Below, piece after piece: positions 9,770 through 22,512 of a stretch of DNA of 27,091 nucleotides; within the stretch, counting starts at the first letter, position 1; each line of letters begins with the position of its first letter. The notes under the pieces were generated by a model. The model saw only the letters and a list, made by a program, of their open reading frames with translations, searched no databases and was not told the origin of the DNA. The stretch is from IMG/VR virus record IMGVR_UViG_3300013233_000230, positions 1 through 27,091 of that record. One strand, written 5' to 3'. This DNA is from a virus. The position numbers and the translations under genes are program-made.

Positions 9770-9867
9770 TGGATTGGTTCTACTTCACAATATTCACAGC
9801 CTTAGCATGTGCAGAATGCTTAGTAATGGCTTTTGTCAAAAGCACTAACAAATTTAGGAATAACTAA
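9769..9867 (+). CDS. 32-residue membrane peptide
   Basis: A short frame coupled on both sides: its ATG overlaps the previous stop (TAATG at 9767-9771) and its stop overlaps the next start (TAATG at 9865-9869). The product begins M-D-W-F-Y-F-T-I-F-T-A and continues with hydrophobic residues including two Cys to about residue 23, then a short positive tail (K-S-T-N-K-F-R). It is a single predicted membrane helix with a cytoplasm-facing basic end. It could be a tiny holin or antiholin, or a regulator of the neighbouring membrane protein. The two-sided coupling is the main evidence that it is translated. Confidence 0.55.
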   Translation: MDWFYFTIFTALACAECLVMAFVKSTNKFRNN

Positions 9868-11303
9868 TGGCTGATTATTATATTGATGTATCACAAGCGT
9901 TTAACGGTGATGGTACAAGTAGTGCAGCCGCTTCGGTTGATGGTGGTGTCGGTGCAGCTAATAGTTTTATAGAGGTTTCGACAGGTGTTCATGCGACTAT
10001 TGGCGTATTAGCAGGAGGGGATAACGTCTATATCCGTACCGCTGATGGTAGCGGAGATTTGAGTGAGACTTTAACGGCTACTACGACAGTTAATACGACA
10101 GCAAGTGATGCAAGCAGAGTAACCTTTATATTTGATAAAGGTGTTAAATGGGCTGAGTCAGGTGTGTTTATTCTTGTATTCGGTACTGCGGCAACCCCTA
10201 GAACCTTTACTTGGGATAGAGGAGTCGATGTTGACGCAGATGGTGCTAACCACAGATTAAAACTTAAAACGGTCAATACAGGGAATTCTAATAACTGGTG
10301 TAAGTTCGTAGGACAGTCTGACTACAGTGGTGTAGAGGTTGATTTTACAGGGGGTGGTCTGGTTTATGGTGGGTCTTGGAACGTTTCAAGCGAAACCACT
10401 AATAACTTCTATAACTTTAAATTTACAACAACAGTAATGAGGACAAACTTTGGTGGTTACGCTGCTTTGGGTAGTACTGGTAATTCATGTGTAGTAAATC
10501 ATACAGACATGGAGATAGACTACACAACTAATGTAAGTTCCATCGCGGATGTTATTTTTGACACATTTGGCTATAGAGGTGTCTTAAATATAAACGGTTT
10601 AAAAATTACCAACGCTATTGCAGGAATGCTAGTGGTTAAAGCTGGAAGTGGTAACGCAGCTCACACTGTGAACATATCTAACATTAATAGACTATCTAAC
10701 TATGGGGCAATTTTTAACAAAACAATCTTAGACGTATCCAAGTCTAATTTGACAAAATACAGTGCATTAGGTGGTGAAAACTTGTATGACTATGAGGTTT
10801 TTAATGACTACTGTATGGTTGATTTTGTTGATAATGATAGCTTTCCTTTTCTCAATGCAACACTACCTGATGGGAGAGGGTGGTCTTTAAGGGTTGACCC
10901 ATTAAGGGCATCACTCAACCATGTAGCTAAAACACCACCTGTAAGAAAACTATACAATGCTGCATCTAGTATTAGAACGATTGATTTAGAGCTTCAACTA
11001 CTGGCGACAGAGACAGAATACGATACCAGTAATTTATGGATTGACGTAACTTACGTTGATGATGTTACTGGTGTTGTTAAATTTATAAGCTCTAAAGCAA
11101 TCATAGGATTGTCTTTAGCTTCAGGCTCTTCGGGTTGGTCAGCTAATACATTTGGTGTAGATAGCTACACACCTTTAAAACTAGCTATCACTACACCCAC
11201 AAGCGTAAAAAAAGACAGTTATATAACGGCTGTTCTTTGTAGTAACCTATCAAAACCTGATGACTCTTATATGTTCTACTGTCCTGATGTAGTGATAACA
11301 TGA
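9867..11303 (+). CDS. Beta-helix-like surface/tail protein (478 aa)
   Basis: The start is ATG in a TAATG overlap, with AGGA 7 bases upstream. The protein opens with A-D-Y-Y-I-D-V-S-Q-A-F-N-G-D-G-T, a start seen in phage beta-helix adhesins, then has many short strands with Gly/Asn turns (to about residue 320) that fit a right-handed parallel beta-helix, and a C-terminal beta-sandwich-like part from about 350. It has no catalytic signature I can identify and no signal peptide. It is probably a virion surface or receptor-binding component, translationally coupled (ATGA) to the 961-residue gene that follows, which is likely its partner. Composition is A+T-rich compared with the capsid genes. Confidence 0.65.
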   Translation: MADYYIDVSQAFNGDGTSSAAASVDGGVGAANSFIEVSTGVHATIGVLAGGDNVYIRTADGSGDLSETLTATTTVNTTASDASRVTFIFDKGVKWAESGVFILVFGTAATPRTFTWDRGVDVDADGANHRLKLKTVNTGNSNNWCKFVGQSDYSGVEVDFTGGGLVYGGSWNVSSETTNNFYNFKFTTTVMRTNFGGYAALGSTGNSCVVNHTDMEIDYTTNVSSIADVIFDTFGYRGVLNINGLKITNAIAGMLVVKAGSGNAAHTVNISNINRLSNYGAIFNKTILDVSKSNLTKYSALGGENLYDYEVFNDYCMVDFVDNDSFPFLNATLPDGRGWSLRVDPLRASLNHVAKTPPVRKLYNAASSIRTIDLELQLLATETEYDTSNLWIDVTYVDDVTGVVKFISSKAIIGLSLASGSSGWSANTFGVDSYTPLKLAITTPTSVKKDSYITAVLCSNLSKPDDSYMFYCPDVVIT

Positions 11304-14185
11304 GTTTAGTCACACCTAGTTTTAATGGCATTACCGCAGGGCTTTCAACATCCCAAGCGTACCCTGATGTTTTAGAGTGTATAAGCTATCAAAGACTGCC
11401 AACCGACCCAGTTTACACATCAAAGCTAAAACTCGTCAGCTTACAAACTGGCTTTGGTTATGTGGTTTACGACAAAGATAATCTATTCGTAACCAGTGGT
11501 GACTACACAGCAAACCCTATTTATTACAGTTCGGTTCTTGCTTATAGCAATGCTGATGCTATTACGGTTTATTTTTTAAAGTACGGTAACAGTTACAAGA
11601 AAAGCACCTTCGCCATTACCAACATAGAAACACTCATGTTCATGGCGCAAGAGGCCAATGTAAACACCACGCTTTCAGCCGTAGCCGTAGCAGCCTTAAC
11701 AGGTATTGCGGTTGATAAAGCAGCTAAGACAATCACCGTATCAACACCACATTCACAAGCTGATGTGTACGATTATTTACAATACTATCAATCACAAGTC
11801 GCTAATGTCGATTTACTGCCAAGCGGTGAAATATTTAGCACCGTACTGGGTACAAACTACACCCTTAAATCTGCTTGGAGTTTAATCTTTACGGCAGCAC
11901 CGACAGGTATTTGGAATATTCAAGGCAACGTAACGTTTAACGCTCAGTTTGATATAGCTAATTTTAATGTTAGTGGCACAGTGTTCTTTGATGCACCTAG
12001 CATACTAACTGCCTTAGATTCACAGATCGGTTCACTGGATACAGTGACAGGTGATGAGACAGTAAGCTATACACCCACAGGCACAAGTAACACACCGACT
12101 AATTTAGATGCGGTGAATATTACCATTGAGGTAGCACCCACTTACACAGGCTTAGACTTCACTGGCTTAGTAACAGGCTCACAAGTTGTTATCTACCAGA
12201 ACGGTACAACCACAGAGATTCAGCGCAATAACTCAACGACCACACAAGAAACATGGAATGAGTTATACAGCGTAGATCAGTTAGTCGATTACACGATATT
12301 AAAGGCAGGTTATGATCCTATTCGAGTTAATAACATTAACGCTAGTAATACTATTCAGTCTGTTGCTGTACAACAGAAAGTAGCTAGAGCATACCAAAGT
12401 GGCTTAACCTTTGTGTATGGTACAGACGGTGCTTATGATGCAGTGACTAAGATATTCACAGTCGCTAAGGCACTCACCGTTCAGCAGTATTATAGCTGTA
12501 TGATTGATGCGTTTATCGCTCAGTCGTCATTGAGAAACGTAGCGTTCTGTATTACACCCAACGGCTCAAACTCATTCAGTTTAGATGAATGCACCATTGA
12601 GCCTACAGATATTACATGGCTCTATCGTGATGGTATGCGAGAGACAGTCAGCGGTGTAGTCACACGTAAATGGGCAGCCGTTTGGTCAAGTGGTAGCGTC
12701 GGCACAGACATCGCAGAGATTCAACAAGCAGCAGGAGCAACACCGATTAAAGGGTGGAATGCACCGACTCAATTAAGCAGTGGCAATGTTGATATGCTAT
12801 TGAAAGTTTACGACTCAGCATTGAGTTTAGATTATCAATCTTACTTAGTGGTTGAGTATGCCAAAGCAGGAAAGTATCAAGGCCGTATCGTAGCGCATGA
12901 TGTTTATCCAACGATTGAAGATGATTTATATGTGGTAGCGGTAGAGCCTACAAGCTCACCCATCACAGCAGCAGACCCAGTATTAGCTAATCCACCAACC
13001 ATCACACTAGAGCTAACACCTGTTACGTGGAACGGTAAAGCGTTCTCGATTACGATTAAAGATAGCGTAGCAGGTAATACAGGCACAGCGATTGCTCAGT
13101 GGATTAACTGGAATATCAGAGAAGAAAACGACTCACTATTTCAAACACTCGACCCGATGAACTGGTACGACATGGTGCTTGATAGCGCATCATCATGGGA
13201 GACAGCACAAGGCATTGTATTAGGTCAATTCTCAGAGGCATTAGTCGGTGTGAGGGTGGTACTGAATGACGGTACAACAGAACATCCTGACTTTATAAGA
13301 CACCAAGCAGATGATGGGACGTATTGGGTTAAGCCGATAACCGCTCAAGGCAGTATCACAGGTATCTTTGCAGGAAGTCGATTACGCATAGTGAATGAGA
13401 CGAAAGCAACAGAAACCTATAATGACATCGTAGCAGGTACAAGCTATTCAGAAAGCTACTCAGACGGTACGACATACGCCTCTGGTGACATTCTATCGCT
13501 TTATCTAGCGTATCAGTCAGGCACAACCGCCAAGCAGTTACAGAAGATTACAACCGTAGCAACCTCAAGCGGTTGGAGTGCTTTAGCCAGTCAAGGTGAT
13601 GATGGCGTTTATAACGTCAATGCAATAGATGGCACACTGGTTACTGGCTACTCAGCAGATTACGTTGCCGATGCCGATGGTTTGAATATTGACATCACCA
13701 TCACTGGCTCAACTTTCAATATCAAGGAAGGTTACGCGTGGTATTCAGCTAACTTAATGACCGCTAACGGATTAGCTTTATTCGCTAATGTAATGAGCGC
13801 AAAGGACGTAGGTAACTATGAGTTTAATACCAGTATTGCAGATATTCACTTAGACAATATTGGCACACAGAATCTACTTGAAACATCCCTTGCTACCTTA
13901 ACAAGAAGTGATGGCACAGACCCACGATTAAACCCTCCCACAGGTGGCTTCGGTATCTCTATGAACGTAGGCAATGTGCTAGTGGCTAACGTAGGTGGCA
14001 GTGCTTTAACAGCTAGTGAGAGTGCTGCACTCTCAGCGATTGATGGCAGAACAACAGGTTTGTCGTTCACCAAGCCTAACGAACTTGATGTGAATGTTGT
14101 GACCAATTCAACTGCCGGCAGCGGCAGCGGTGCTACACCAGACGAGGTCTTGATAGCTGCACTTAAAGCTAACTTGTTGAGTTAA
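11300..14185 (+). CDS. Large multidomain beta-rich tail/adhesion protein (961 aa)
   Basis: Starts in an ATGA overlap with the beta-helix gene. The N-terminal 160 residues are a mixed domain ending in a helical A-D-V-Y-D-Y-L-Q-Y-Y segment. Strand-rich regions follow with many Thr, Ser, Asn and Gly residues. Two regions (about 290-345 and 688-760) look alike: G-S-(Q/R)-x-x-I, a Thr-rich T-T-x-T-E stretch, then a hydrophobic strand, suggesting a duplicated domain. The C-terminus has a Gly-Ser linker (G-S-G-S-G-A-T-P) and a final helix A-A-L-K-A-N-L-L. It is most likely a fibre or baseplate-associated protein recognising the host surface. The precise role is unknown. Confidence 0.6.
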   Translation: MSLVTPSFNGITAGLSTSQAYPDVLECISYQRLPTDPVYTSKLKLVSLQTGFGYVVYDKDNLFVTSGDYTANPIYYSSVLAYSNADAITVYFLKYGNSYKKSTFAITNIETLMFMAQEANVNTTLSAVAVAALTGIAVDKAAKTITVSTPHSQADVYDYLQYYQSQVANVDLLPSGEIFSTVLGTNYTLKSAWSLIFTAAPTGIWNIQGNVTFNAQFDIANFNVSGTVFFDAPSILTALDSQIGSLDTVTGDETVSYTPTGTSNTPTNLDAVNITIEVAPTYTGLDFTGLVTGSQVVIYQNGTTTEIQRNNSTTTQETWNELYSVDQLVDYTILKAGYDPIRVNNINASNTIQSVAVQQKVARAYQSGLTFVYGTDGAYDAVTKIFTVAKALTVQQYYSCMIDAFIAQSSLRNVAFCITPNGSNSFSLDECTIEPTDITWLYRDGMRETVSGVVTRKWAAVWSSGSVGTDIAEIQQAAGATPIKGWNAPTQLSSGNVDMLLKVYDSALSLDYQSYLVVEYAKAGKYQGRIVAHDVYPTIEDDLYVVAVEPTSSPITAADPVLANPPTITLELTPVTWNGKAFSITIKDSVAGNTGTAIAQWINWNIREENDSLFQTLDPMNWYDMVLDSASSWETAQGIVLGQFSEALVGVRVVLNDGTTEHPDFIRHQADDGTYWVKPITAQGSITGIFAGSRLRIVNETKATETYNDIVAGTSYSESYSDGTTYASGDILSLYLAYQSGTTAKQLQKITTVATSSGWSALASQGDDGVYNVNAIDGTLVTGYSADYVADADGLNIDITITGSTFNIKEGYAWYSANLMTANGLALFANVMSAKDVGNYEFNTSIADIHLDNIGTQNLLETSLATLTRSDGTDPRLNPPTGGFGISMNVGNVLVANVGGSALTASESAALSAIDGRTTGLSFTKPNELDVNVVTNSTAGSGSGATPDEVLIAALKANLLS

Positions 14186-14192
14186 AAAGCTT

Positions 14193-14606
14193 ATGAAACT
14201 TTACAGATATGCAGCATCCGATCAGGGCACGTTTGGTGTCTTGGTGTTCGGCTCCCAGTTTATTTACACTGGCGAACTACCTTGGAGGGGCAATGCCCCA
14301 TACTGGTCGTGCATACCAGAAGGTAAATACACAGTTCGCTTGCGTTCAAGTCCAAAGTATGGTAACGTGTACGAAGTTACAAACGTAGAGGGGCGCACTT
14401 ATATACTCATGCACCAGGGTAACTATTGCGGAGACAGTCGTCTTGGCTTCAAAACAAATGTCCAAGGGTGCATACTCTTAGGATTAAAGACTGGAAGGCT
14501 TAACGGTCAGAAGGTTGTCCTCGACTCACGTACTGCACGACGTAGGCTTGAGTCTTATATGAAATTTGAAACTTTTGAACTGGAGATTATTAATGGAATG
14601 GTTTAG
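14193..14606 (+). CDS. DUF5675 family protein (lysis-region protein)
   Basis: 137 aa. Motifs fit DUF5675: G-T-F-G-V-L (12-17), Y-T-G-E-L-P-W-R-G-N (25-34), S-C-I-P-E-G-K-Y (39-46), I-L-M-H-Q-G-N (71-77) and Q-G-C-I-L-L-G (91-97). This family is common in phage lysis regions next to holins, as here. Its biochemical activity is not established to my knowledge; the spaced His (74) and Cys (93) in H-x-G-N and G-C-I resemble the arrangement in L,D-transpeptidases, so a peptidoglycan-related role is a reasonable guess. No classical lysozyme, amidase or transglycosylase is seen elsewhere in the window. The ribosome binding site is weak, and the stop overlaps the next gene by 14 bases. Confidence 0.8.
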   Translation: MKLYRYAASDQGTFGVLVFGSQFIYTGELPWRGNAPYWSCIPEGKYTVRLRSSPKYGNVYEVTNVEGRTYILMHQGNYCGDSRLGFKTNVQGCILLGLKTGRLNGQKVVLDSRTARRRLESYMKFETFELEIINGMV

Positions 14607-17906: not shown

Positions 17907-18912
17907 CGCTAGCCTCTGTGTGCAGCAATCTAGCGAGACTCGTGCGGCGGCGTTTGGCGCTCCACTAGCTACCGTAGGTACCTCAGGTCTACGTTACCTG
18001 CAGACTGTAGGCGATTGGCTCGTTGTGACTGAGGTCGCTAGTAACAAGGCGCACTTCTCACAGGATGGAATCTCCTGGTTCGAGAAAGACTTTGGGGCGT
18101 ACACGCCAGGTCAGATGGCTTTCGGTAATGGTAAATTCCTTGTGGCCGCTAATGAGTATAATGCTGTGGCGAACACAGACACAGCAGCTTTTCTCTCGTG
18201 TGGAGCTGACCCGACAGGAACCTGGACTTACTTCGCTCAGCCTGTTGGTGCGCCCTCCACATTCCCTCGGTGTACAGCCTGCTTGTTTAAAGATGGCTAC
18301 TTCTTTCTCATGGGGAAGAATACCGCAGGACTCTCCTTCGTTGCAAGTAGTCCCGACACGATAACCTGGATTGGTGATGTGGGCGACACCTCAGCGCCAA
18401 GCGCTAACGTGGGTGTACGTGCTAACTATAATCCTGGTAAAGTACATTTTGAAGAGGCCGTCTCGGGTTTTAACTACACGCGTGCTACGAACTATACAGA
18501 CAGTCTTGGCTTTGTTGTAGGGCAAGAATCCTCCAGTCTTTCTGTAGTTAGGAGTCCTAACTTAAAAGCGTACGCTGTAGCGCCTGAGGCTAATGATGCT
18601 ATACAGGTTACGGACGATAGTTTAGCTACAGTTTGGGGTCGACGTGTCCTAGACAACCTGACTATCTCGGAGCTAAGTGTACCGTATGTTAAGGTTAACG
18701 GCGAGTACTCCTTGGGTGTTGCAGCAGCGGCAGACAAAGTGCTGCTCACCACGACGCTTGGTTATTGTGAGTCTTTGACTTCTGATATAAGCAATTTCAC
18801 ACAGCCTGCCGATGGTGTCAGCTTTACTAACCATGCCATCTCGATGTTTCGAAACGCCTTCTTTATACTCAATCAGAGTACTGGCGAACTACGCAAGAGG
18901 ATTTACAGCTAA
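17875..18912 (+). CDS. Propeller-like tail-region protein (345 aa)
   Basis: ATG 17875 overlaps the end of the previous gene; an earlier TTG (17845) is less likely. Repeated strands with the pattern of sialidase/Asp-box-like propellers are visible: S-Q-D-G-I-S-W (about 64), M-A-F-G-N-G-K-F-L-V-A-A, L-F-K-D-G-Y-F-F-L-M and S-S-P-D-T-I-T-W. The 'SxDGxxW' units fall at the start of blades, with 'F-x-x-G-x-F-x-V' strands between. No catalytic residues are assigned. The position between a short fibre and the nozzle gene suggests a fibre component that continues the preceding protein's job; the overlap fits a single fibre split into two polypeptides. Confidence 0.6.
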   Translation: MLFQADSTLLSASLCVQQSSETRAAAFGAPLATVGTSGLRYLQTVGDWLVVTEVASNKAHFSQDGISWFEKDFGAYTPGQMAFGNGKFLVAANEYNAVANTDTAAFLSCGADPTGTWTYFAQPVGAPSTFPRCTACLFKDGYFFLMGKNTAGLSFVASSPDTITWIGDVGDTSAPSANVGVRANYNPGKVHFEEAVSGFNYTRATNYTDSLGFVVGQESSSLSVVRSPNLKAYAVAPEANDAIQVTDDSLATVWGRRVLDNLTISELSVPYVKVNGEYSLGVAAAADKVLLTTTLGYCESLTSDISNFTQPADGVSFTNHAISMFRNAFFILNQSTGELRKRIYS

Positions 18913-20513
18913 TGCCCTTAGTCCACATAGATAATGTAAACAAGTATGGGGTCGTGACTGACCTCGAGTCTTACGACCTACCGCCTGAGGCTTGGTCGCT
19001 TGTGCAGAACGTACGCTTCACCAAGCGTGGGGCTGAAAAGTTTCATGGTCATGAAGAGTTCCTTGGGGGTTGGACGTTTTCCCCCTACTGGCTGACTGCG
19101 TTTTACACTAGCGCCAGCTACCACTGGGTTTATGCGGGACTGACAAGGCTTGGCATGACGACAGGTGCTGCCCATGTAGATGTAAGCCGGTATACCAGCG
19201 TGCTGGGTGATGCGGACTATAACTTCCCTCTAGGTACAAACTTCTCTTTTGCACAGCTTGGGGAGTTGCCCCTTGTCTTTGCCGATGGGAATTCTGAACC
19301 GCCCCAAAGTTGGAATGCCACGAACTTACGCTTTGAGGATTTGCCCAACTGGCAGGCGGACACCTTTGCGGATATCGCCACTGTAGTAGATCGGCATGTG
19401 GTCGTCATGCGAGTTAAGAAGTCGGGCGTTGCGTTTAACCCTCGTATGGTCAAGTGGAGTCAACCTGCTGATCCAGGCACATACCCAAGTAGCTGGGATG
19501 AAACGGATCCTGCAAATACAGCAGGTGAAGTTACCCTTGCGGAAACACCTGGGGCGATTGTTGCCAGTGCACAGTTGGGCAACTCAATGCTTATCTACAA
19601 AGAGGACTCGATCATCTCCATGCGTTATGTGGGCGGGCAGTCTATCTTCCGTTTCGATACCGTGTTCTCCGAGTTTGGTGCCATCGGTAGGAATGCCGTG
19701 GGTGTGCTGGAAAACGCGCACGTGGTCGTCACGCTTAACGATATCTTCATGCACAACGGCTCAACCTTCGAGAGTGTTATTGACGCGAAGAATCGGGATC
19801 TTTTCTTTGAGGCGCTTGATGCGGATTACTTAGATAAGCTTAATGTGCAGGTGCTTAATGTTGCCTCTGAGGTTTGGTTTAGCTTTCCAGGTGTAGGTAG
19901 CGATGGGACGCTTAACACCGCATGGGTTTGGAATTATAAACTGAATGTCTGGTCGCGTAGGGACTTACAGGACTTTGACTTTATGGCAGTAGGCTTCATT
20001 GATACCTCTAGTGTGTCGCTAGTCATGGACACGCAGAACCTTACTTTTAATGAAGGCTCAGACACTTTTGATAAACTTTCGACGGAACCTGTACTTGAAG
20101 ACTTTGCGGCTATACGTGCAGCGGATTCAAAGCTTTTTAAGCTTAACAGCAGTGACGCTTTTGATGGTGGGGCTTTCACGTCTAGGCTTGAGCGCACCGG
20201 TCTTGCCCTGGTTGGGCGTGATCGGCAGGACGAGTGGCTTATAGATATGGATAGCCGCAAGTTTATCAGGCGCATACATCCTAGACTAAAAGCAAGTGGG
20301 CCTGTGAAAATCTATGTGGGTGGTCAAGAGCACCTAGACGGTGTGATCAACTGGACAGGCCCATTTAGTTTTGACCCGAACACTCAGACGCATTTAGACT
20401 GTCGTGTGAACGCGAGGTTCTTCGCGTTCCGCATTGAAACAACTACGGATCTTTCCTGGGAGTTGCTGGGTTATAGCCTGGATCTTGATGTTATAGGGAG
20501 GGCGCAGCGATGA
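18912..20513 (+). CDS. Tail nozzle/hub protein (podovirus tail stabilisation type)
   Basis: 533 aa, ATG in a TAATG overlap. The N-terminus has a short strand and N-V-R-F-T-K-R-G-A-E-K-F-H-G-H, and the body is a run of beta strands with many Trp/Phe, e.g. W-V-Y-A-G-L, L-P-L-V-F-A-D-G, M-L-I-Y-K-E-D-S-I and W-V-W-N-Y-K-L-N-V-W-S-R-R-D. Propeller-like nozzle proteins of this size and build are found in podoviruses (counterparts of P22 gp10 and T7 gp12), where they form the tail tip below the adaptor and hold fibres. The neighbours (adaptor 16628, fibres) fit that role. The start of the next gene overlaps its stop (ATGA). Confidence 0.7.
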   Translation: MPLVHIDNVNKYGVVTDLESYDLPPEAWSLVQNVRFTKRGAEKFHGHEEFLGGWTFSPYWLTAFYTSASYHWVYAGLTRLGMTTGAAHVDVSRYTSVLGDADYNFPLGTNFSFAQLGELPLVFADGNSEPPQSWNATNLRFEDLPNWQADTFADIATVVDRHVVVMRVKKSGVAFNPRMVKWSQPADPGTYPSSWDETDPANTAGEVTLAETPGAIVASAQLGNSMLIYKEDSIISMRYVGGQSIFRFDTVFSEFGAIGRNAVGVLENAHVVVTLNDIFMHNGSTFESVIDAKNRDLFFEALDADYLDKLNVQVLNVASEVWFSFPGVGSDGTLNTAWVWNYKLNVWSRRDLQDFDFMAVGFIDTSSVSLVMDTQNLTFNEGSDTFDKLSTEPVLEDFAAIRAADSKLFKLNSSDAFDGGAFTSRLERTGLALVGRDRQDEWLIDMDSRKFIRRIHPRLKASGPVKIYVGGQEHLDGVINWTGPFSFDPNTQTHLDCRVNARFFAFRIETTTDLSWELLGYSLDLDVIGRAQR

Positions 20514-20746
20514 GCTTTGTACGTGGGTTTATACCTCAACATGTGGAAGGTGTCCTCGTTTACCTCGAGGAGCTTGGCCTTCGTTTAGAGCAGGCGTTTG
20601 TTGAGCCTTATGAAATCCTGACATCGGAACCTTTAGCTAGCAGCCCTGGGCTCGTAGTCTACGCCGATGGTGTCTCCTGGAACCCAGGTAGTGGGGAAGG
20701 CCTGTACAGAAGATCACTCGCACGAACTTGGGTGTTTATAGGCTGA
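20510..20746 (+). CDS. Small hypothetical phage protein (78 aa)
   Basis: ATGA overlap with the nozzle gene and an AGGGAGG ribosome binding site about 7 bases upstream. The N-terminal half is helical (V-E-G-V-L-V-Y-L-E-E-L-G-L-R-L-E-Q-A-F), followed by a strand/turn part with G-L-V-V-Y-A-D-G-V-S-W-N-P-G-S-G-E-G-L-Y and W-V-F-I-G. The second half, ending a beta hairpin, resembles short C-terminal domains that finish structural proteins. No function is assigned. A 67-base gap follows, the widest between 15163 and the window end. Confidence 0.65.
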   Translation: MSFVRGFIPQHVEGVLVYLEELGLRLEQAFVEPYEILTSEPLASSPGLVVYADGVSWNPGSGEGLYRRSLARTWVFIG

Positions 20747-20813
20747 ACGCCTTGCAAGCTTAAGCCTTCTGTGGTAAGGTATTGTTTTAAATTATTGTAT
20801 TATGGGATCGAAC

Positions 20814-21566
20814 ATGCAAGCATTGAAAGAGAGTAGCATCGACAAGATCAAACAGCTTGAGGCAGTCATGCTTGACATGCCGCAGTACGAGGCTGAAATC
20901 AAACACTACCACGCTAATGGTTTTTACGCTCGCGAGATGCGTATACCTGCAGGCGTGGTTCTCGTTGGCAAGACTCACGCAAGTGAGCATCTTTGCTTTA
21001 TATCGCAGGGCAAGTGTCTTGTGGTCTCGGAAGAGTTCACAGGTGAGGTCTCCGCACCCTATACTTACGTGTCGAAGCCTGGGGCAAAGCGTGCTATCAC
21101 GGCGCTTGAGGATCTGGTGTGGACTACGGTTCACAGGACGGAGTTGTCAGACTTGGATGCGCTTGAAGCTGAACTGATCGTATCAGACCAAATAACGCTG
21201 GATAAGCTTGATCACGTATCCTTCTTGCAGGAGGCCGGCGTAACTGAGGGGCAATCGCGCTTGATCTCAGAGCACGGTATGCTGGACTTAGAGCTCGGGC
21301 TCGCCTCTTATGGCTTGCGCTTAGCGGACTCACTACGTCAGGGCAAGGGCATATTTGCGGCTAAGCAGCTAGAGGCTCATGTGCGAGCTGCCCCCATGAC
21401 GGATGGGCTCAAGCGTACAACAGTCGGGCGTTACACGAATCACTCAGCTCAACCTAATTGTAGGGTTGTGAAAGCTGACGGTGATTTTTATTTAGAAACA
21501 CTTGATGCTATCGCGAAAGGCGATGAGCTGGTGATTGATTACAGATACATACTTAGGAGTATATAA
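20814..21566 (+). CDS. Cupin–SET domain fusion protein
   Basis: 250 aa from ATG 20814 (an ATG at 20802 adds four residues; both have weak ribosome binding sites). Residues about 35-110 form a cupin-like barrel: R-I-P-A-G-V-V-L-V-G-K-T-H, E-H-L-C-F-I-S-Q-G (cupin motif 1 with His/Glu/His-type residues) and P-G-A-K-R-A-I...W-T-T-V-H (motif 2). Residues about 175-248 have SET-domain hallmarks: G-K-G-I-F-A (SAM-binding GxG entry), G-R-Y-T-N-H-S-A-Q-P-N-C (the NHSxxPNC motif) and G-D-E-L-V-I-D-Y (the GEELxxDY motif with catalytic Tyr). The SET is very compact; the usual central insertion is missing. SET proteins methylate lysines, mostly in eukaryotes; here a virion or host protein would be the target (inference). 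Confidence 0.75.
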   Translation: MQALKESSIDKIKQLEAVMLDMPQYEAEIKHYHANGFYAREMRIPAGVVLVGKTHASEHLCFISQGKCLVVSEEFTGEVSAPYTYVSKPGAKRAITALEDLVWTTVHRTELSDLDALEAELIVSDQITLDKLDHVSFLQEAGVTEGQSRLISEHGMLDLELGLASYGLRLADSLRQGKGIFAAKQLEAHVRAAPMTDGLKRTTVGRYTNHSAQPNCRVVKADGDFYLETLDAIAKGDELVIDYRYILRSI

Positions 21567-21567
21567 C

Positions 21568-22512
21568 ATGAGTTGGGTAGCAGTAGCAACAATTGGTGGG
21601 GCGTTACTTTCGAGTAGTAGCGCATCTAAAACGAACAAGTCGAACGAGCGTATAGCGCAGCAACAGGCGAATGCGACACCGAAGTTTAACACGACACTTC
21701 AGCCCGAGATTGAAAAGAATCTTGGTACGACCTCAGGTAGTCCTTATTCCGCGTTTCAAGGTCAGGACGTTGCTGGTTTTTCTACACAGCAGAACCAGGC
21801 GCTTGGCAATGGTGGGGCTGTGGCGCAGGGACTGAACGCGAACGCAGGGACTGCCTCGGAGGGCTTTAACGCGTTCGCCTCAGGTCAGTTCCGTGATGCA
21901 GGGAATCCGCAGATGCAGGCTATGGTTGCAAGTCTACAACAGAACGCTCAGGATAACTTTCAAAGGAACACTAACCCTGCTATACAGAACACTGCGGTGC
22001 AGGATGGTGGTATCGGGGGGAGTCGTCAGGGCATAGCGCAAGGCCTAGCGATCTCGGATATGAACAAACAACTGATTAACGCTGAGGCCGATATGCGTGG
22101 CAACCAGTACAACCAGGATATGAGTAATCAACTTAGCGCCCTGCAGAATCAGGGTTCTATCTTGAGTGGCCAGACGGCTGGTGATAACTACTTGATGCAG
22201 CAAGGTGGGCTTGTCCAAGCGTTACAGCAGGCTAACCTCGACTCAGGTAAAGCCAAGTTTCTTGACAAGGCGAATGGTCAGTACAATCGCGATAAGGATA
22301 TGTTGTCGTTGTTGCTGGGTACGCCGACAAGTTCTGGACAATTCCAGGCTCCGGTTCGTACCGATCCTATGGCGGCAGGTTTTGGTGGGGCGCTCACCGC
22401 GTACCAATTAGCACAGGGTTACGGTGGTGGTAATACGACGCCAGCGCCTGTGCCGACTTGGCAGACTGGTGGTGGAATGAATCCAAATAACTTTGAATAC
22501 ACAGGACCTTAA
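21568..22512 (+). CDS. Candidate internal virion/DNA-ejection protein 1 (314 aa)
   Basis: ATG 21568 with AGGAG 8 bases upstream; the frame runs back into the previous gene. The N-terminus is hydrophobic and signal-like (M-S-W-V-A-V-A-T-I-G-G-A-L-L-S-S-S-S-A), followed by a Gln/Asn/Ala/Gly-rich helical body with few aromatic residues. This composition and a hydrophobic N-terminus are usual for podoviral ejection proteins (counterparts of P22 gp7 and T7 gp14), which leave the capsid and cross the host envelope. It is followed by two more polar proteins and a giant protein, a typical ejection-gene order. Confidence 0.65.
   Translation: MSWVAVATIGGALLSSSSASKTNKSNERIAQQQANATPKFNTTLQPEIEKNLGTTSGSPYSAFQGQDVAGFSTQQNQALGNGGAVAQGLNANAGTASEGFNAFASGQFRDAGNPQMQAMVASLQQNAQDNFQRNTNPAIQNTAVQDGGIGGSRQGIAQGLAISDMNKQLINAEADMRGNQYNQDMSNQLSALQNQGSILSGQTAGDNYLMQQGGLVQALQQANLDSGKAKFLDKANGQYNRDKDMLSLLLGTPTSSGQFQAPVRTDPMAAGFGGALTAYQLAQGYGGGNTTPAPVPTWQTGGGMNPNNFEYTGP

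Follow-up and report, generated by a model that had tools for sequence, protein, structure and literature searches.

What is a SET domain, the fold that eukaryotes use for histone methylation, doing in a gene set among the virion genes of a short-tailed phage, and might it still act there as an enzyme? To our knowledge, SET enzymes have been studied almost exclusively as eukaryotic chromatin writers. The locus lies in a 27,091-base virus record, analysed here over its whole length (the window), which carries terminase, portal, major capsid, tail, gp10-like, cupin-SET and ejection genes, all on the plus strand. The cupin-SET gene is an open frame at 20814..21566 (+) that encodes 250 residues, residue 1 corresponding to window position 20814; an alternative in-frame ATG is found 12 nt upstream, at 20802. 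Its upstream neighbour encodes a gp10-like virion structural protein (18912..20513, +; phrog_3287, 2.4e-105), a 78-residue ORF without assigned function (20510..20746, +) sits between the two, and a DNA ejection protein (21568..22512, +; phrog_4287) follows. The ATG of the ejection gene starts 1 nt past the cupin-SET stop and its AGGAG falls within the 3' end of the cupin-SET gene; the two genes are probably translationally coupled. An earlier note on this DNA had given the reading frame, three motifs (GKGIFA, NHSAQPNC and GDELVIDY) and a location between tail and ejection genes. All of these proved accurate, and adjacency to ejection genes extends across the family.

From N to C terminus the protein consists of a cupin fold, a linker of helices and a SET domain. 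The cupin, or jelly-roll, domain spans residues 6-131 (20829..21206, +), as delimited by a PHROG match over these residues, by Foldseek matches to cupins and by strands between residues 28 and 108. The linker occupies residues 132-165 (21207..21308, +), a region for which the model has helices at 126-140, 145-153 and 163-166. The minimal SET domain, devoid of the SET-I insert, covers residues 166-247 (21309..21554, +; its start falls at about 161-166) and is defined by a Pfam match and by VIA-align Z scores of up to 12.9. Three plus-strand motifs mark it out: GKGIFA, the SET N-terminal motif, at residues 177-182 (21342..21359), where G177 and G179 are invariant; RTTVGRYTNHSAQPN at residues 201-215 (21414..21458), which aligns with ARFINHSCEPN of MLL1 and includes NHSAQPNC (residues 209-216); and GDELVIDY at residues 236-243 (21519..21542), where E238 and Y243, the latter at the catalytic position, are invariant.

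Profile searches assign the C-terminal half to the SET superfamily. Pfam SET (PF00856) matches with E = 4e-8, scoring 34.1 bits where the gathering cut-off is 22.4, all 44 of the aligned relatives match this profile too (E up to 1, best 9.4e-10), and the best matches among solved-structure profiles are MLL1 SET domains (2e-10). The GxG, (R)xxNHSxxPN and GEELxxDY motifs are present in that order. Among PHROGs, the whole length matches phrog_34170, whose function is not annotated, and the last third matches phrog_28741; an NCBIfam search with the protein gave no match.

Structure prediction points the same way. AlphaFold2, run on a 44-row alignment (A3) made up of the window protein and IMG/VR sequences only, returned a model with a mean pLDDT of 90.5 and a pTM of 0.61, so the individual domains are confident and their relative orientation is not. 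VIA-align places the C-terminal part on EZH2 (Z 12.9), on MLL1 with SAH (7u5v; Z 12.7, 1.5 A over 77 residues), on vSET (3kma; Z 12.1, rmsd 2.1, 81 residues aligned), on SET7/9 (Z 11.7) and on SET8 (Z 11.4). Judged by the ends of the aligned ranges, which presumes that the last residues are free of gaps, Y243 falls on MLL1 3944, vSET 105, SET7/9 335 and SET8 336, the catalytic tyrosines of these enzymes. The MLL1 profile alignment agrees residue by residue, with Y243 on 3944 and the NH pair on that of MLL1. Both segments of the C-terminal pseudoknot are likewise covered in register by the structural alignment of the model, a correspondence at the level of alignment and not of topology. The expectation of the earlier note that a catalytic Tyr and an Asn-His pair would lie at the active site of a SET domain is thus borne out by both alignments. 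Chance resemblance of motifs is ruled out by the Pfam match, its recurrence in all aligned relatives and the structural alignment. Together, profiles and model show the C-terminal half to be a genuine SET domain, one that appears reduced to the part holding S-adenosylmethionine and the catalytic Tyr.

What sets the domain apart is what it has dropped. In 83 of 84 fused proteins only 28-29 residues separate GxG from NHS, compared with 64 in MLL1 (counted on the profile alignment to NH) and commonly 62-72 in bacterial SET hits, a few of whose counts are unreliable where the motif search picked another GxG. Loss of SET-I, suspected from the single sequence as a missing central region, is therefore a trait of the whole family. 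In its normal place stands an RT-x-x-GRY-x-NH signature, an invariant Arg-Thr followed by GRY. In characterised SET enzymes the lysine channel has SET-I as one of its walls, so in the absence of SET-I substrate binding must either differ or not occur. The cupin-SET protein is accordingly a member of the SET superfamily, and not a canonical lysine methyltransferase of SET-N/SET-I/SET-C build.

Other phages encode a comparable reduction in stand-alone form. Mini-SETs of about 100 residues with an RTPLGGF-x-NHS signature occur in the cyanophages P-SSM7 and P-RSM6 and in the pelagiphage Kolga; they match Pfam SET, and profile-profile comparison relates them to the fused family with a probability of 98.8% (E 1e-16). 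Relatives of the mini-SETs are encoded at 444 or more IMG/VR loci. PSSM7_204 of P-SSM7, CPXG_00131 of P-RSM6 and gp27 of Kolga resemble the cupin-SET protein in this signature and in lacking SET-I, but they have no cupin, end in KY rather than DY and lie outside the ejection operon. The mini-SET loci that we collected are L145:2477-2776, L146:3058-3357 and L008:6082-6390; the P-RSM6 gene directly precedes a gp25-like baseplate gene, and that of P-SSM7 lies near nrdB. From their sequences, phage SETs without SET-I may be regarded as forming a separate SET subclass, a grouping drawn from shared signature and spacing and not from a rooted tree.

The family is large. Although no relatives came up when IMG/VR was scanned with the single sequence, an alignment-based scan found them at 587 loci or more, and both halves are present in the majority of the top 80; the view in the earlier note that SET domains are rare in phages does not hold for this family. 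From IMG/VR, phage records and a genome scan we collected 87 ORFs with both halves (the window's copy being counted twice, as window and as L001), 19 with the cupin alone and 39 with SET alone, these last mostly ordinary bacterial SET proteins. The full fusion occurs in the phage records zth2-2, MW202744, Rhodoferax phage P26218, MW202655/MW202557 and Pseudoalteromonas phage PH1, while most of the remaining matching phage records match the cupin half only. Prophages of Paraburkholderia also encode both halves. A Paraburkholderia MAG, for instance, has a pair of cupin-SET genes, separated by about 83 kb, on the 369-kb contig NZ_SCRP01000034 (L092, L096), as well as a second contig with a copy of the cupin alone; these copies probably represent several related prophages. 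Cupin-SET genes on short MAG contigs binned as Bathyarchaeota, Anaerolineae and Bacillota (L094, L098, L103) probably sit on phage contigs whose host labels are unreliable.

The two halves also occur apart. In Paraburkholderia ferrariae (L100:7629-9109) the cupin and the linker plus SET are two adjacent genes in different frames, and Comamonadaceae ALPHA2B has a linker-plus-SET gene alone, shortly before an ejection-like gene. Where the halves are separate genes the helical linker stays with SET, the split and stand-alone SET genes matching model positions 141-279 and 149-277, and the linker therefore belongs to the SET unit. This makes it a candidate replacement for SET-I. On the best cupin tree the SET half changes between presence and absence six times; the tree may fit a single gain of the SET half or several losses.

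Despite this breadth, with relatives only about 31-38% identical to the window protein, the residues expected to matter for catalysis hold firm. Seven positions of the SET half (R201, T202, G205, N209, H210, E238 and Y243) never vary in a 62-row alignment, Y243 being present in 62 of 62 rows. In A3, 15 columns are invariant, and 11 of them lie in the SET half: these same seven together with S173, G177, G179 and N215. Both halves are under strong purifying selection, the median dN/dS being 0.03 in each (Nei-Gojobori, 76 partly overlapping pairs of related fused genes, the window lineage having no close relative).

The cupin-like fold suggested at first reading for the N-terminal half is confirmed by Foldseek, which ranks small cupins first among its PDB matches (E about 5e-6, target TM about 0.6), and by matches to PHROG families of 'short tail fiber' (phrog_12032, 2.5e-40) and 'tail fiber adhesin' (1.3e-26). 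At position 55, a putative metal ligand (P0001 numbering), all 19 of the stand-alone copies have His, but 44 of the 86 fused copies have Gln, a pattern that would fit a cupin pocket relaxed or altered after joining SET; of the other putative ligand positions in fused cupins, H59 is mostly retained and position 53 is variable. A different architecture, with the cupin C-terminal to some 220-265 extra residues, is seen in IMG/VR podoviruses (L025:2669-3856, L027:4481-5671, L061:5323-6390).

Gene order across the family, for which neighbours were classed by PHROGs and the window's own neighbours were too divergent to serve as probes, ties both forms of the cupin to one region of the genome. At 55 loci the gene that follows the cupin, whether fused or alone, falls mostly into families of DNA-ejection or internal virion proteins (phrog_598 in 37, phrog_21132 in 9), and the upstream genes, more scattered, belong to head-closure, gp10-like or tail families. 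The typical site of the cupin-SET gene is immediately before the first DNA-ejection gene, and stand-alone cupins often occupy the same site in other podoviruses. For example, BPP-1 has the stand-alone cupin Bbp23 at the cupin-SET position; in Alteromonas phage R8W the stand-alone cupin follows the RNA polymerase gene, at a different site of the structural module. These podovirus proteins (phrog_12032, Bbp23) are homologous to the N-terminal half but lack SET. Homology and gene position together suggest that the cupin half is a component of the podovirus tail/ejection module that many phages make alone.

How, then, might the two halves work together? Since the key catalytic residues are kept, these phages are predicted to carry out protein methylation, either as they assemble or as they infect. 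The reading that we favour, and to which we give about an even chance, is that the gene encodes a tail-module component of a short-tailed phage: a minimal protein methyltransferase that is active, depends on SAM and is linked to the tail/ejection module. The cupin would hold the putative enzyme in that module, and the SET half would N-methylate a protein kept near by the cupin and the helical linker. The most likely substrate would be the cupin-SET protein itself or, at the assembly stage, one of the tail or ejection proteins of the phage; a host protein met at entry is a less likely one. Association with the virion, catalytic activity and lysine as the target are all steps that we infer. The neighbouring ejection protein was considered as a general lysine substrate and rejected, there being no signal in lysine content (2.3% at fused loci vs 2.4% at cupin-only loci) or in conserved lysines; at one fused locus, L032, the 300-residue ejection-protein neighbour contains no lysine at all.

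A rather improbable alternative is that methyl transfer has been lost and the beta-clip fold persists as a module for tail building or SAM sensing. The family-wide absence of the SET-I substrate wall would suit such a role, as would the grouping of the gene with virion genes and a cupin partner that appears structural. A merely structural beta-clip, however, need not retain a catalytic Tyr, and the positions for SAM binding and catalysis (GxG, NH and Y243) are the most strictly conserved of all in proteins that have otherwise diverged widely; their invariance would go unexplained, and the strong purifying selection on the SET half also speaks against this account. An active enzyme could instead be directed at the host, delivered with the ejection proteins and methylating an envelope, nucleoid or transcription protein, for example, at the start of infection. 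The gene does adjoin the first ejection gene, with which it is probably coupled, and vSET of PBCV-1, a close structural match, is packaged and acts on host chromatin. Yet relatives of the cupin-SET protein are found in phages and prophages of varied hosts, which do not point to one host target, and we think this course of events unlikely. The proposal in the earlier note that the cupin might act as a demethylase, making writer and eraser of one chain, fares worst and is highly improbable: both folds are present, but no JmjC or other 2-oxoglutarate oxygenase profile in Pfam matched at E up to 1, the putative ligand position 55 is Gln in about half of the fused cupins and position 53 varies, the cupin belongs with tail-protein families, and it stands alone, often at the same site, in phages without SET.

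Among known systems, the nearest in kind is vSET (A612L) of PBCV-1, a minimal, stand-alone viral SET histone H3K27 methyltransferase from an algal virus. The cupin-SET protein resembles it as a small viral SET, with a profile match of 3.6e-6 and Y243 in register, but differs in its shorter GxG-to-NHS spacing of about 28 residues, its added RT signature and the cupin fused in front. The MLL/KMT2 and SET8/KMT5A enzymes provide the best sequence and near-best structural matches, with the NHS..PN and DY motifs in register, but they possess SET-I and act on histones. Full-length sequence matches identify phrog_34170, UOF81456.1 and gp30 of Rhodoferax phage P26218 as the same cupin-SET protein, and a fold search does so for the uncultured phage protein A0A6J5PTS6. 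Database labels for these members range from unknown function and tail-fibre-like to 'SET domain containing protein' and 'PBCV-1 H3K27 methyltransferase structure', so identification as SET proteins predates this analysis. In the open-access literature that we searched there was no paper on the cupin-SET family, and matches for SET or cupin in phages concerned unrelated subjects ('I-set', 'C2-set', chromatin).

The wider proposal, which we put forward only tentatively, is that a SET-I-less phage subclass bearing RT-x-x-GRY-x-NH resides in the tail/ejection module of many environmental podoviruses, where it would carry out tail-borne protein methylation with an exceptionally small active SET domain, the cupin and linker serving as substrate platform in place of SET-I. 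That a widespread phage family keeps the catalytic residues and drops the whole substrate-recognition insert turns the size of the smallest working SET domain into a testable question; another is whether tailed phages methylate their own virion, or the host during entry. Such tests are practical, as the protein is encoded by cultured Rhodoferax phage P26218 and Pseudoalteromonas phage PH1 and, in split form, by a cultured Paraburkholderia.

The structural region of the window holds further proteins of note. Two long frames, at 11300-14185 (961 residues) and 9867-11303 (478 residues), have no Pfam or PHROG match, and a DUF5675 protein (PF18925, 2e-26) is encoded amid the structural genes at 14193-14606.
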